From: Mesonia sp. K7
GTDB taxonomy: Bacteria > Bacteroidota > Bacteroidia > Flavobacteriales > Flavobacteriaceae
DNA length: 39,137 nucleotides
Assembly: GCF_003233725.1 (NCBI RefSeq)
Contig: NZ_QKQV01000018.1
Location: 1-39,137 of the forward strand
Reading direction: 5' to 3'
Part shown: positions 34,438-38,132 of the stretch, one piece after another
How the letters are laid out: every line of letters starts with the position of its first letter
Numbering within the stretch: the first letter of the stretch is position 1
Program-made: the position numbers and the translations under genes
The notes under the pieces: model-generated
What the model was told of the DNA's origin: nothing
Database searches by the model: none
What the model saw: only the letters and a program-made list of their open reading frames with translations

Positions 34438-34956
34438 TTAGTTTTCTGCGACATCTTTTAATAACCACTTTTCCAATTCTTTAGTTTCATCACTACAATG
34501 GAGTACGCTAATATCTCCTGTGGTTTCAAAAACGACAGCACGAATTTCATGAAATTCTATTACATTCGCCTCTCGTAATTTAGATCGTAAATCCCCTTCG
34601 GTCACCCGTGCCTTTCTCAAATTATCGTATAAAATCTTCTCCCCATGCATCAGTAGTAAGGGCTGGTTGTCTATGAGCTGTTGAAAAAGTGGATACCGTC
34701 GTAAGAGCGCTGCTATGAGTTGAAATACATACACCGCGAGCAGTCCTACCACGCCTTGCCACAAAGTAACGGAAGAACTCAGGATGGTCGTGGCAATAAT
34801 CGAACCGATGGCCACGGTCATGGCAAAATCAAAACTGGACATTTTAGAGAAACTCCGTTTCCCGAACATACGGGTATAGCAAATGACGGCGATGTAAATT
34901 CCTAAGGTGGAAAGTATAATCGTGGTGAAAGAGGTAAGTGTTATCGATAATTCCAT
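34438..34956 (-). CDS. DUF421 (YetF-like) membrane protein
   Basis: 172 aa. Membrane helices at about 10-28, 45-62 and 65-85, with GKRSFSKMSSFDFAMTVAIGSIIA, the DUF421 signature; the soluble end (LRKARVTEGDLRSKLREANV, FHEIRAVVFETTGDISV) is the YetF fold. YetF/YrbG-type proteins are linked to stress and spore membranes; exact role unknown. Confidence 0.9.
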   Translation of the reverse strand: MELSITLTSFTTIILSTLGIYIAVICYTRMFGKRSFSKMSSFDFAMTVAIGSIIATTILSSSVTLWQGVVGLLAVYVFQLIAALLRRYPLFQQLIDNQPLLLMHGEKILYDNLRKARVTEGDLRSKLREANVIEFHEIRAVVFETTGDISVLHCSDETKELEKWLLKDVAEN

Positions 34957-35405: not shown

Positions 35406-35469
35406 AGCTAAGAGAATACTTGTTCGGCAATCGGCTATATTTCTTATAAATTATGAGAGGATTAGTTGA

Positions 35470-35640
35470 CAGTGATCCTGAATTGGGGTCGTTGCTCAAA
35501 AAAATCCCATCACTGGCTTTCACCTGTATTGTCTTTTGCTTCAGAGTTTAAGGATTACCTAGCGGTGATCCTGAAATGGGGTATGTTGCTCAAGAAAATC
35601 CAATCACAGGCTTATCGCCTGTAAGTCTTTTTTTATTTCC
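35470..35640. repeat. Tandem ~80-bp repeat beside the tRNA scar
   Basis: Copy I from 35470 and copy II from 35562 (period 92) share GTGATCCTGAAWTGGGGT, GTTGCTCAA, AAAATCC, ATCAC, GGCTT and CCTGTA. The GTGATCCTGAAATGGGG words could be multiple terminal repeats of an IS21-like element, a weak suggestion only. Part of copy II is also the mirror of the tRNA-proximal terminator at 35698. Confidence 0.65.
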
Positions 35641-35714
35641 AGCCCTTAAGTGCTTGGCAGCTCTACGAGCTGGAAATAAAAAAATCCAATCACTTTTGTG
35701 ATTGGATTTTCTTG
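35591..35714. repeat. 17-bp perfect inverted repeat pair
   Basis: CAAGAAAATCCAATCAC at 35591-35607 and its exact reverse complement at 35698-35714. A third arm (AAAATCCAATCAC, 35681-35693) forms the terminator hairpin with the second. Confidence 0.75.
35681..35710 (-). terminator. Terminator of the lost tRNA
   Basis: A perfect 13-bp stem AAAATCCAATCAC / GTGATTGGATTTT with loop TTTT; on the minus strand a T run follows (35674-35683). Confidence 0.85.
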
Positions 35715-35727
35715 GTCGGGGTGGCAG
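35713..35727 (-). other. tRNA 3'-end fragment (attachment-site-like scar)
   Basis: On the minus strand CTGCCACCCCGACCA, the last 15 nt of a tRNA including CCA, followed directly by the terminator. No tRNA body lies upstream; it is replaced by ATAATTTGGGG and unrelated DNA. This is what a tRNA-targeting integrative element leaves at one side. The isoacceptor cannot be told. Direct GTTAACC repeats at about 35788-35807 may be part of the same arrangement. Confidence 0.6.
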
Positions 35728-35900
35728 CCCCAAATTATGTTTGAAAAACCTAGTGATAACAAGGGTTTTCAAGGTTTTTTATAAACCTGTTAACCGAATT
35801 GTTAACCAATGATTAATAATGAAATAGTATTATTTGAAAGAACGTCTGTTACAAAGATAAACATTATAACTCACTAAATCAATATAATAGCTATGAAATG

Positions 35901-36104
35901 TTAGGGATATTTCTCTATATATTCATTGATGATTTCTTCTTCAATGCCGCTGTATTCGGAGAACTCCTTAACGGTGATGAACTGATGTGGCTCTTTATCG
36001 AAGTAGGACTTGATGTCGTTTAAGAGCTTACGACCATAGCGTTCACTTCGGCCGGTGATGAGCTGAATGTCTTTTGGGTATATGCATATCCTAGTGAGTT
36101 TCAT
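35901..36104 (-). CDS. Small HTH-like protein, 67 aa
   Basis: A short helical protein (TRICIYPKDIQLITGRSERYGRKLLNDIKSYF, then HQFITVKEFSEYSGIEEEIINEYI) with two segments that look like MerR/excisionase-type helix-turn-helix. I recall it as recurring in flavobacteria, often in accessory DNA. It lies divergent from the four-gene cassette and could regulate it (inference). Confidence 0.7.
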   Translation of the reverse strand: MKLTRICIYPKDIQLITGRSERYGRKLLNDIKSYFDKEPHQFITVKEFSEYSGIEEEIINEYIEKYP

Positions 36105-36253
36105 ACTATATCCATACTTTATCTACGCTATAACCCTACTACAAATACGGCAATAAAATCCTTTTTCGGAGGGAAGGTTTTTAAGCGGAAGTAGATTTTT
36201 CTTTTTCAATGATGAAGTTAGTTGTTTTGGCTTAATAATCAAAATATGAAGTT

Positions 36254-37009
36254 ATGGCAAGACAAACCGGAATTATCAAATTGAAAGGAACTATCGGAGA
36301 TATTTCCTTTTACAAAACGGCAGACGGACACCTGGCAAGAATCAAAGGTGGACCTGATGCGAATCGAATTGCAAACGATCCTGCGTTTCAAAGAACGAGA
36401 GAAAACGGATCGGAGTTTGGAAGAGCAGGGAAAGCAGGGAAACTGCTTCGCGTTGCTCTAAGGGTACTGATGCAGAATGCCTCGGACAAAAGAGTGACCA
36501 GTCGATTGACCAAGCAATTGGTCGCAATTACCAAAACCGATACGGTCAATGAACGTGGGTTGAGAACCGTCCAAGATGGGGATTTAAGCCTGTTGAATGG
36601 CTTTGAGTTCAATATCAATGGGAAGTTGGCGTCGTTGTTTTTTATTGGCTATACCTCAGCGATAGACCGTGTTGCTGGTACGATGGAAGCCGATATCCCG
36701 GACTTTATTCCTGTGAATGATATTGTTGCTCCAGGTGGTACCACCCATTTTAGACTTTCTGTAGGTGGAGCTGAGGTTGATTTTGAAAACGAAACCTATG
36801 TTTTCGATAGTGAATCGACCGCCATTTTACCTTGGGATGGTACGACCGTACCGACGTCGACTTTAACCGCTAGCTTAACCGCTAATTCGACCTTACCGAT
36901 GGTGCAGGTGATTGGCGTAGAGTTTTTCCAAGAGGTGAACGGACAAATGTATCCGCTTAAAAACGGAGCTTACAATGCCTTGGGTGTGGTAGGTATAGAC
37001 ACTCCATAA
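36254..37009 (+). CDS. Unknown 251-aa protein, first gene of a compact cassette
   Basis: Not recognised with certainty. The N-terminal 70 residues are distinctive: GIIKLKGTIGDISFYKTADG, RIKGGPDANRI, FQRTRENGSEFGRAGKAGKLLR, with conserved-looking Gly/Arg; the layout recalls the short N-terminal motif of DUF6266-type Bacteroidota proteins. The C-terminal half looks beta-rich (TTHFRLSVGGAEVDF, STLTASLTANSTL). No signal peptide or membrane segment. The next gene starts 2 bp on. It may be a structural or phage-derived protein; that is a guess. Confidence 0.75.
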   Translation: MARQTGIIKLKGTIGDISFYKTADGHLARIKGGPDANRIANDPAFQRTRENGSEFGRAGKAGKLLRVALRVLMQNASDKRVTSRLTKQLVAITKTDTVNERGLRTVQDGDLSLLNGFEFNINGKLASLFFIGYTSAIDRVAGTMEADIPDFIPVNDIVAPGGTTHFRLSVGGAEVDFENETYVFDSESTAILPWDGTTVPTSTLTASLTANSTLPMVQVIGVEFFQEVNGQMYPLKNGAYNALGVVGIDTP

Positions 37010-37011
37010 GG

Positions 37012-37473
37012 ATGGAGCTTGTTTTAGAACGCGCTTATTTGAAAGAGGGTACCAACGGTACTCTCTTTATTTCCACGGAAACGATAGGGCAACCAAAATT
37101 AAAGTTTCTGTGTTTTACCCTAGAACTGCCGTGGAAAGAAAATCGGCGATCGGTGTCGTGTATTCCGGAAGGGATTTATGAGCTGCAGCCCCGGTTTTCA
37201 AAAAAATTCAAGCATCACCTCATCGTGAACGATGTGGTGGGTAGAAGCTACATTTTGTTTCATCCCGCGAATGATGCCCAAAAAGAATTGCGGGGTTGTA
37301 TTGCTCCGGTAAGTTGTTTAACGGGTATCGGAAAAGGCATTTATTCCAAGGATGCGATGCAAAAACTCTTGGCCTTGGTGTACCAAGCCCAAGACCGCAG
37401 AGAAACCATTTTATTAACGATTAAATCAGTGAATTATGAATCTTGTAGAACGATATCAACAACCCACTCCTAA
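37012..37473 (+). CDS. DUF5675 family protein (possible L,D-transpeptidase-like fold)
   Basis: 153 aa. DUF5675 marks: ERAYLKEGTNGTLFI, FTLELPWKENRR, IPEGIYELQPRFSKKF, VGRSYILFHPANDAQKELRGCIAP. The pair H84 (FHPAN) and C96 (RGCI) sits where L,D-transpeptidase-type enzymes have His and Cys, so a peptidoglycan-directed activity is possible, not shown. The gene overlaps the next one by 38 bp. Confidence 0.8.
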   Translation: MELVLERAYLKEGTNGTLFISTETIGQPKLKFLCFTLELPWKENRRSVSCIPEGIYELQPRFSKKFKHHLIVNDVVGRSYILFHPANDAQKELRGCIAPVSCLTGIGKGIYSKDAMQKLLALVYQAQDRRETILLTIKSVNYESCRTISTTHS

Positions 37474-37675
37474 GTTTTTTAAAATCCTTCGAAATATTGG
37501 GATTGCTCTAGCTACTGCTGGAGGAGCCATTATCGCTGCTCCCATTGCAATGCCTGCCTTAGTGGTGAGTATTGCTACCTATATGACCGTTGCTGGAACA
37601 GTGGCCACAGCTGTGAGTCAAGCGGTGGTGAGTGATCAAGAAAACAACTCTTCCAAAAAAGAAAAACAAAAATGA
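37436..37675 (+). CDS. Small Ala/Gly-rich membrane protein, 79 aa
   Basis: A basic amphipathic start (ERYQQPTPKFFKILRN), then about 46 hydrophobic residues (IGIALATAGGAIIAAPIAMPALVV and following) that make two close helices, and a polar, Lys-rich end (KKEKQK). The shape is that of holin-like proteins. It is coupled on both sides: a 38-bp overlap with the DUF5675 gene and ATGA with the next. Confidence 0.7.
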   Translation: MNLVERYQQPTPKFFKILRNIGIALATAGGAIIAAPIAMPALVVSIATYMTVAGTVATAVSQAVVSDQENNSSKKEKQK

Positions 37676-37848
37676 TGGATACCTGTACAAAATCAGGAGT
37701 GATTGGCGGAACCCTGTTTTCCGCCATTTTTAATATTACCTGGGACAATATTGTCTTTACCGTGGTGATGGCTGCCATAGGTGCTATCGTGAGTTATTTT
37801 GTCTCGTTATTGCTGCAGAAGTTTACGAAAAAGAAACCTCACAAATAA
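37672..37848 (+). CDS. Small holin-like membrane protein, 58 aa
   Basis: Starts in the ATGA overlap with the previous stop. Two hydrophobic segments (SGVIGGTLFSAIFNI and IVFTVVMAAIGAIVSYFVSLLL) and a basic tail (KFTKKKPHK), the usual order of class II holins or phage-like pore proteins. It is shorter than common gene-calling cut-offs and would often be left out. It ends the cassette. Confidence 0.65.
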   Translation: MMDTCTKSGVIGGTLFSAIFNITWDNIVFTVVMAAIGAIVSYFVSLLLQKFTKKKPHK

Positions 37849-38063
37849 GTATCGATATGGCTTCCGTAAGTGACATAAAAATGTTTGCACGCCCATTGGT
37901 ATAATCTTTTTAGTTTTAGTCTTTTGTTGGCGTTGTATATATTATTTTCAAGTTTCATAAAGTCCTTATTCATGTTCTTAACCTCTTGTATGAATTCCTT
38001 TTTACTGATGAGCATCATCTGTGATTTTACGACGGCGAGATTAATTTTCTTATCTGTTTTCAT
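37839..38063 (-). CDS. Hypothetical basic protein, 74 aa
   Basis: From the ATG at 38063 (the longer frame to 38093 lacks support). A Lys-rich helical protein (MKTDKKINLAVVKSQMMLISKKEFIQEVKNMNKDFMKLE...). No known family. It converges on the cassette and overlaps its last gene's end by 10 bp. The length and coding character are modest, so it may be chance. Confidence 0.4.
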   Translation of the reverse strand: MKTDKKINLAVVKSQMMLISKKEFIQEVKNMNKDFMKLENNIYNANKRLKLKRLYQWACKHFYVTYGSHIDTYL

Positions 38064-38132
38064 AATTAAAAAATTTAAGTTGAAAAGCCACACGATGGCT
38101 TAAAATAAACGCATAGGCGACCAAAACGAGAG

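Follow-up and report, generated by a model that had tools for sequence, protein, structure and literature searches.

Holin-endolysin systems pair a soluble hydrolase with small membrane proteins, and Type 10 secretion and holin-endolysin release cassettes are built from holin-like and hydrolase-like chromosomal genes with a partner that lacks an obvious signal. Among mobile elements, those of the CTnDOT/NBU type in Bacteroides carry RteC, and LidI of the satellite PLE reportedly has a role in lysis; a text search of one satellite paper gave no mention of it. For phage satellites, the available parts of the respective papers give a gene content of integrase, excision-type helix-turn-helix (HTH), Rep and DnaC-like genes (PMC10803314), a size of 7-20 kb (PMC13376191) and, for the single satellite protein TcaP, the redirection of capsids (PMC10945586); what is available of PMC12324425 concerns another element. 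Islands integrated at tRNA genes, satellites and holin-endolysin release cassettes are all known kinds of system. The locus described here, which lies in a stretch of 39,137 nucleotides from Mesonia sp. K7 (contig NZ_QKQV01000018.1, positions 1 to 39,137, forward strand; hereafter the window), represents a Bacteroidota island family that brings along a lysis-type module, the first gene of which encodes a protein of no known family.

The module comprises four tightly packed genes on the + strand, A to D, spanning positions 36254-37848 of the window, and the divergent gene E. The list of open reading frames (ORFs) and their translations give the following features:

36254-37009, + strand: A, 251 amino acids, no known family; N-terminal three-strand sheet, helices and C-terminal eight-strand sandwich in the AlphaFold2 model
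37012-37473, + strand: B, 153 amino acids, probable endolysin from its PF18925 and phrog_1501 matches; 2-bp gap to A
37436-37675, + strand: C, 79 amino acids, holin-like membrane protein with two hydrophobic segments by hydropathy, relatives in viral contigs; 38-bp overlap with B
37672-37848, + strand: D, 58 amino acids, one-span membrane protein by hydropathy, holin- or antiholin-like; ATGA overlap with C
35901-36104, - strand: E, 67 amino acids, HTH-like, divergent from A as are its relatives; probable excision factor or repressor, weak Cox-like PHROG match

The compact spacing agrees exactly with that given in a first-pass annotation of the same sequence. In profile searches none of A, C, D and E scored over a curated family cut-off.

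Cassette and E form the attachment (att)-end module of an integrative island that targets tRNA genes and carries its own tyrosine integrase and replication genes. From one end to the other, the island consists of the tRNA 3' end, an arm site, E, A-B-C-D, cargo, a DnaC-like loader, Rep, HTH_17, RteC, the tyrosine integrase, a second arm site and the intact tRNA, so ordered that in a circular form the cassette would adjoin the integrase across attP. This backbone order is conserved where the sequence beyond the cassette was followed rightwards for up to 60 kb; there the DnaC-like loader and the replication initiator were recognised by PHROGs and HTH_17, RteC and the integrase by Pfam. Among 25 loci read far to the right, which were picked for long contigs and not at random, dnaC, rep and the HTH gene lie on this side of the cassette in 12; in 10 of these an integrase is present as well, followed in 9 by an intact tRNA. 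Left out of the 25 were all 11 clade-2 loci, which showed no int or rep, and three loci on short contigs (G015_C30, G015_C21 and G009_C90), in which none of int, rep and dnaC was seen on the right. Wider comparisons rest on 80 loci, the best 80 of at least 586 confirmed stretches from a scan of the genome collection with an alignment of A, and thus the closest relatives of A; reading at most 10.7 kb to the right, we found dnaC together with rep in 8 of them (L056 is the record behind G044).

Nine complete elements, about 17 to 50 kb long, define the island ends. Eight of them (not G344) carry a 13-17 bp repeat of the tRNA 3' end at both ends, with the integrase beside the intact tRNA, a geometry also found over two contigs in the genome of the window. 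Seven of the nine (not G391 and G344) have in addition an arm-type repeat, for example TGTGAACCGAATT, with a length of 10-21 nt that falls to 10-11 nt in G099 and G101. Its distance to the core is 72-75 nt on the side of the cassette and 110-123 nt on that of the integrase. In 90 mismatched end pairs serving as control, at most 18 nt were in common, and the long matches were the tRNA core itself; since many elements use the same tRNA, the core alone cannot pair two ends. At the left edge of the cassette a tRNA 3' end was found in 39 of 78 stretches versus 3 of 73 and 0 of 70 control stretches, when 27 tRNA 3' 17-mers were compared with at most 2 mismatches between -850 and -430 (L102, L105 and L114 of the 81 stretches have no room for this comparison). 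These matches are to tRNA-Pro, -Ser and -Arg. Inspection of most loci by eye showed many cassettes with a minus-strand tRNA 3' end at the left edge and a terminator-like hairpin before it. Within about 10 kb to the right of the cassette, a direct repeat was seen in the 80 loci and the window only for L073, where a second element starts, apart from a few matches of 15-16 nt.

In one genome (G253:C1:606500-646499; L377, L378) tandem islands stand at a single tRNA-Ser, each with integrase and cassette. Integrase genes or fragments also lie just left of the cassettes in L063, L077, L093, L108, L127 and L128 and at the left end of G059; they likely belong to adjacent elements or to earlier ones that used this tRNA.

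In Mesonia sp. K7 itself the island is most likely distributed over the window and a second contig, C7:

35678-35713, - strand: terminator-like hairpin, an inverted repeat with arms 35678-35693 and 35698-35713
35715-35727, - strand: att core GTCGGGGTGGCAG, which comprises the final 13 nt of tRNA-Pro(tgg) and agrees in every base with the 3' end of the C7 tRNA-Pro
35788-35807: integrase arm-type site TGTTAACCGAATTGTTAACC, 20/20 identical to C7:10865-10884
36109-36130: two repeats with an 11-bp period upstream of E, TATCCATACTT / TATCTACGCTA, possible operator
C7 5696-6424, - strand: dnaC, at what is most likely the other end of the island, as are the next four genes
C7 6801-7265, - strand: rep
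C7 7277-7636, - strand: HTH gene (HTH_17-like)
C7 7807-8634, - strand: rteC, confirmed by Pfam
C7 9554-10780, - strand: int, confirmed by Pfam
C7 10865-10884: arm site TGTTAACCGAATTGTTAACC, between int and tRNA-Pro
C7 from 10987: tRNA-Pro, intact, behind the arm site

Most likely one end of a single island lies in the window and its other end on C7. The specific evidence for this pairing is the identical 20-bp arm site, which lies 73 nt from the core in the window and 122 nt from it on the integrase side. The genome has a single match to the tRNA-Pro 3' end at up to 2 mismatches, an exact one at 10986 of C7. The tRNA scar noted in the first-pass annotation is thus real but short, comprising just the 13 nt of the core: over 17 nt the window has 4 mismatches and is among the 39 loci without a match in the stricter comparison above, and left ends from other elements, at 18 nt, are a better match to the C7 core than that of the window. 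Between the two contigs the central part of the island is missing.

We interpret the hairpin as a terminator that belonged to the earlier tRNA-Pro locus and lies beyond the island border; by eye, the same layout recurs beside tRNA 3' ends elsewhere. Repeats left of the cassette, also noted earlier, do exist: two imperfect ones of 39 and 32 nt, recurring 93-94 nt apart at 35458-35613 just left of the att core. Behind D follows an 84-amino-acid ORF on the - strand (37839-38093), which matched no family over the cut-off and had no relative except itself among 52 loci compared. The genome contains a second copy of the cassette on contig C28, followed by GajA, GajB and SduA (Gabija, Shedu) and by tRNA-Met, and no integrase was found between this cassette and the tRNA-Met.

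A was present in 44 of 198 genomes comprising the own genome and its relatives, and in 32 of 395 genomes of an even sample of the phylum, the carriers belonging to the own family, order and class; several cassette copies per genome occur. A-B-C-D stand in this order in 66 of the 80 closest loci, with a median A-B gap of 1.5 nt and a C-D overlap in 49 of the 66, and E lies divergently upstream of A in 77 of the 80, as it does in the window. The gene order thus recurs in other Bacteroidota, and the objection that these genes do not occur together elsewhere falls away. The median pairwise ratio of non-synonymous to synonymous substitution rates (dN/dS) is 0.096 for A, 0.135 for B, 0.225 for C, 0.290 for D (with a wide spread of 0.147-0.640 between quartiles) and 0.187 for E, which indicates purifying selection. 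The same ORF order elsewhere and the low dN/dS indicate that the cassette is more than a chance assembly.

Plasmids gave one match to A, on the 25-kb plasmid p1 of Marivirga sp. BKB1-2 (L248), with a small divergent gene at the place of E; there the relative of A is accompanied by a short DUF5675 gene and lies near an annotated site-specific integrase. A free-standing mini-element of about 2.3 kb was suggested by several Flavobacterium pairs in which DNA similarity extends only from about -609 to +1650. In other locus pairs the similarity reaches beyond these limits, and the mini-element was set aside because the data are better explained by the integrase and tRNA that appear at the distal end once longer stretches are read. 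Solo copies of the cassette are then remnants or other element types.

The assignment of B to DUF5675 in the first-pass annotation was borne out by a PF18925 score of 100.5 bits (E-value 6.7e-29) against a curated cut-off of 26.7, and B also matches phrog_1501 (E-value 4.5e-22). By this curated score B is a member of the family, and its phage relatives have the same invariant residues: across 65 sequences including phage ones these are E38, Y56, H84, N87, G95, C96 and S112. Unlike the phage DUF5675 genes, B lies behind A in an operon of a bacterial island and not in a phage genome. As to the likeness to L,D-transpeptidases proposed earlier, conserved His and Cys are present, and relatives of B in the uncultured gut phages cr10_1 and cr50_1 carry a transpeptidase annotation, but the idea has no support from the fold, as the confident structure model (mean predicted local distance difference test, pLDDT, 93.7) gave no Foldseek match to PDB folds at an E-value of 0.001 or below; a YkuD match of B was not found in Pfam. 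DUF5675-like genes were found in 150 phage records. One of these records is a microvirus of 4.9 kb, in which the gene (L249:3009-3419) is flanked by those for capsid and pilot proteins and may provide a single-gene lysis function; this position supports B as a lysis enzyme.

Hydrophobic segments were called by a simple hydropathy scan. B has none in 22 of 22 rows, C has two in 14 of its 22 rows and one in the other 8, and D has a single one in 20 of 20 rows, in line with the two holin-like small membrane proteins described in the first-pass annotation. B with C and D accordingly shows, by layout alone, a holin-endolysin arrangement, in which a hydrolase without an export signal of its own adjoins small proteins of few spans. 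With A leading the hydrolase-like B beside two small membrane proteins, the earlier suggestion of a lysis, release or competition device fits.

A itself, described as an unknown from the beginning, remained without a match in the Pfam, PHROG and NCBIfam models. It lacks a hydrophobic segment in 24 of 30 rows. Its AlphaFold2 model is two-part and fairly confident (mean pLDDT 86.7, predicted template modelling score 0.76), and no Foldseek match at an E-value of 0.001 or below was obtained among PDB and viral models. The fold candidates beyond this limit were generic C2/Ig-like sandwiches, with E-values of 0.0027 or worse in the PDB and 0.0067 or worse among viral models. In a PDB sequence search recA chains matched A down to 2.2e-6 with no stretch passing alone, which we take to be an artefact of long repeated chains.

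DUF6266 (PF19781) resembles A in its similar size and glycine-rich start, and several of its loci have an HTH gene and a HFFILNKG protein as neighbours. In contrast to these likenesses, profile similarity is absent (hhalign probability 0.07% with shallow alignments) and the DUF6266 model matches 0 of 10 divergent relatives of A, and DUF6266 was rejected as the family of A. Among the DUF6266 loci L309-L319 (in the own genome on C22, C19 and C4), several were seen by eye near an excisionase-like HTH gene and a 'HFFILNKG' protein of 146-157 amino acids, and a look-alike of this protein was also noticed by eye behind the A-D cassette in G042_C1 and L072. No paper on DUF6266 was found among open-access full texts.

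E weakly matches a Cox-like excisionase PHROG (E-value 0.023). Two or more copies of TATC[CT]A[TC] occur in 16 of 78 spacers between E and A versus 0 of 66 control stretches, an enrichment which suggests that E may bind the 11-bp-period repeats upstream of it.

The content of three complete islands was scanned with Pfam and PHROGs for G044 (12 of 12 ORFs behind D), with either of them for G064 (10 of 11) and with Pfam for G418 (16 of 20). No relaxase family appeared among the Pfam matches (12 of 12 ORFs in G044, 5 of 11 in G064, 16 of 20 in G418), so that the relaxase of an integrative conjugative or mobilizable element was not seen in them; several ORFs match nothing, and the proteins without any Pfam family (4 of 10 in one set, 2 of 10 in another) may hide a relaxase or particle gene. 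A credible virion family was likewise absent from the Pfam and PHROG matches, with no capsid, tail or terminase gene seen. The cargo is variable and in several cases contains defence genes. G044 carries MksE (a clear match), a weak JetD match, an ABC/UvrA-like protein and RibD_C. G064 carries a Schlafen/AlbA protein, an M36 peptidase and other secreted proteins, and G418 an Eco57I-type methylase, an HNH-like gene, aldo/keto reductases and others.

We propose, and give an even chance of being right, that the module is the inducible holin-endolysin release step of a non-conjugative, satellite-like island, with A as a partner. In this model E, together with HTH_17/RteC, would hold the divergent A-B-C-D operon shut and/or act as excision factor. 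Upon induction the island would excise and replicate, and A would be produced in the cytoplasm. C and D would then open the inner membrane for B, which presumably needs them because it has no hydrophobic segment; B would cut the wall, and lysis of the cell would free the island, A perhaps being bound to the island DNA or forming or altering a carrying particle. A release step is favoured by the fixed place at att, the divergent regulator, the holin-endolysin layout, the island's own replication genes and the lack of conjugation families among those found.

Several observations weigh against this proposal. No solved fold matches B at an E-value of 0.001 or below. Of the 25 loci read to the right, 13 have neither dnaC nor rep, and some of these lie among ordinary-looking chromosomal genes; the cassette therefore stays intact without mobility genes. 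These 13 loci could be domesticated or decayed copies, so that the term 'domesticated' used in the first-pass annotation may still apply to them, but it is at least incomplete, as in the other 12 the cassette forms one end of an island that has replication genes, and the window itself looks like an end of this kind. An empty site was not found: the gene at the left flank (34438-34956) has a match in 14 of 15 relatives from the genus, and none of 20 loci, the own one included, has a tRNA. The elements vary too much in length to fit a capsid of one fixed size, and the absence of A from viral collections disfavours regular packaging into virions.

The lysis genes are also not a constant companion of A. 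By the criteria used, B, C and D are missing in 12 of the 80 loci and partial in 2. Only A and E are present in eight loci of Chitinophagaceae or other Bacteroidota and in L129 (Flavobacterium); the other loci without B-C-D are L073, which has a short B fragment, and L077 and L124, which are at contig ends. In a distant clade, with 29-47% identity to A, most members lack B-C-D, and 11 of its loci examined further showed no integrase or rep. The mostly solitary distant clade and the A+E-only loci thus show that A can do without lysis genes. In six A+E-only loci (L071, L102, L105, L113, L115 and L131, of which L102 and L105 are near-identical contigs of one metagenome-assembled genome) an intact tRNA-Asn or -Val on the + strand precedes the cassette.

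A bolder form of the release proposal, which we regard as unlikely, is that this island class, widespread in Bacteroidota, lyses its host in order to leave without conjugation genes or a helper capsid. A would bind or coat the replicated DNA and carry it out as a nucleoprotein, in vesicles or in a self-made particle, and defence systems would in this way spread between genera.

In the own genome a cassette copy has defence genes next to it, which may also point to abortive infection, an unlikely explanation in our view. Here A (or E) would sense a phage and B-C-D would lyse the cell early, the island protecting the population like its Gabija and Shedu neighbours. The MksE and weak JetD matches in G044, the Eco57I-type methylase with an HNH-like gene in G418 and the several cassette copies per genome agree with this, as does the purifying selection on the cassette even where replication and integrase genes are missing. 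However, the cassette keeps a fixed place by att, outside the variable cargo, A has relatives without lysis genes, and PADLOC, with which A and B of the five proteins were scanned, gave no match for either.

Parasitism on a helper phage, with A remodelling or joining the helper's particle and B-C-D adjusting the time of lysis, is decidedly unlikely, even though the island resembles the PICI, P4-like, PLE and PICMI satellites in its integrase, HTH/excision-type regulators, replication genes, fixed-site att and lack of virion genes among those found. This is the satellite gene content given in the available part of PMC10803314, and TcaP, in what is available of PMC10945586, shows that a single satellite protein can redirect capsids. 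The island differs from satellites in carrying a lysis-type module with A, in having no recognised helper and in its length, which mostly exceeds the 7-20 kb given in the accessible part of PMC13376191. A was not seen in viral contigs or phage records. Terminase candidates proved to be weak overlaps of P-loop proteins (E-value 0.005, and 4.5e-5 and 6.6e-5 without a passing stretch). Going by titles and the start of abstracts, no satellite of Bacteroidota is described among the open-access papers listed.

Secretion of the Type 10 kind, by which B-C-D would export A as an effector or surface protein without lysis, seems highly improbable. A is the first gene of the operon and mostly lacks a hydrophobic segment, the cassette shares holin-like and hydrolase-like genes with these systems, and secretion by a holin plus hydrolase is known as far as the available parts of the sources go (PMC9527704, PMC10847048, PMC10109510). 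Unlike those cassettes, A-D are part of a mobile island and A is not a known toxin or enzyme; moreover, A occurs without B-C-D in most of the distant clade and in some closer loci, and it is the most conserved of the five genes, which would be unusual for an effector.

Viral relatives of the cassette concern B and C. Those of B comprise 233 stretches in viral contigs, and relatives of C lie at 35 places there, with none in the phage records. A had no match in two scans of IMG/VR or in 50,697 phage records. Collections of this kind favour contigs with viral hallmark genes. In 115 viral loci B alone was found in 79, C alone in 33, both in 2 and neither in 1, and A or D in none, which speaks against ordinary lysis genes of full prophages. 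That the cassette is a remnant of a prophage lysis cassette, as the relatives of B and C in viral contigs and of B in 150 phage records might suggest, is barely credible and was set aside, given that A is a phage gene in none of the collections searched, that none of the viral loci holds A or D and just 2 hold B with C, that gene set and att geometry are kept across genera and that dN/dS is low.

Among the elements of Bacteroides, the island is similar to the CTnDOT/NBU type in RteC (PF09357), HTH_17 and an Arm-DNA-bind_5 integrase, but differs in its lysis-type module, in place of which the three scanned elements showed no family typical of conjugation and no relaxase. Judged by titles and the beginnings of abstracts, none of the open-access papers listed on satellites and islands of Bacteroidetes or Flavobacterium describes this island family. 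The element bears on the question of how non-conjugative defence islands move in Bacteroidota. What recurs here is an element with defined ends, its own integrase and replication genes, a lysis-type module and a strictly conserved protein A without a fold match, and A in combination with the tRNA-end geometry is a marker for finding such elements at large.

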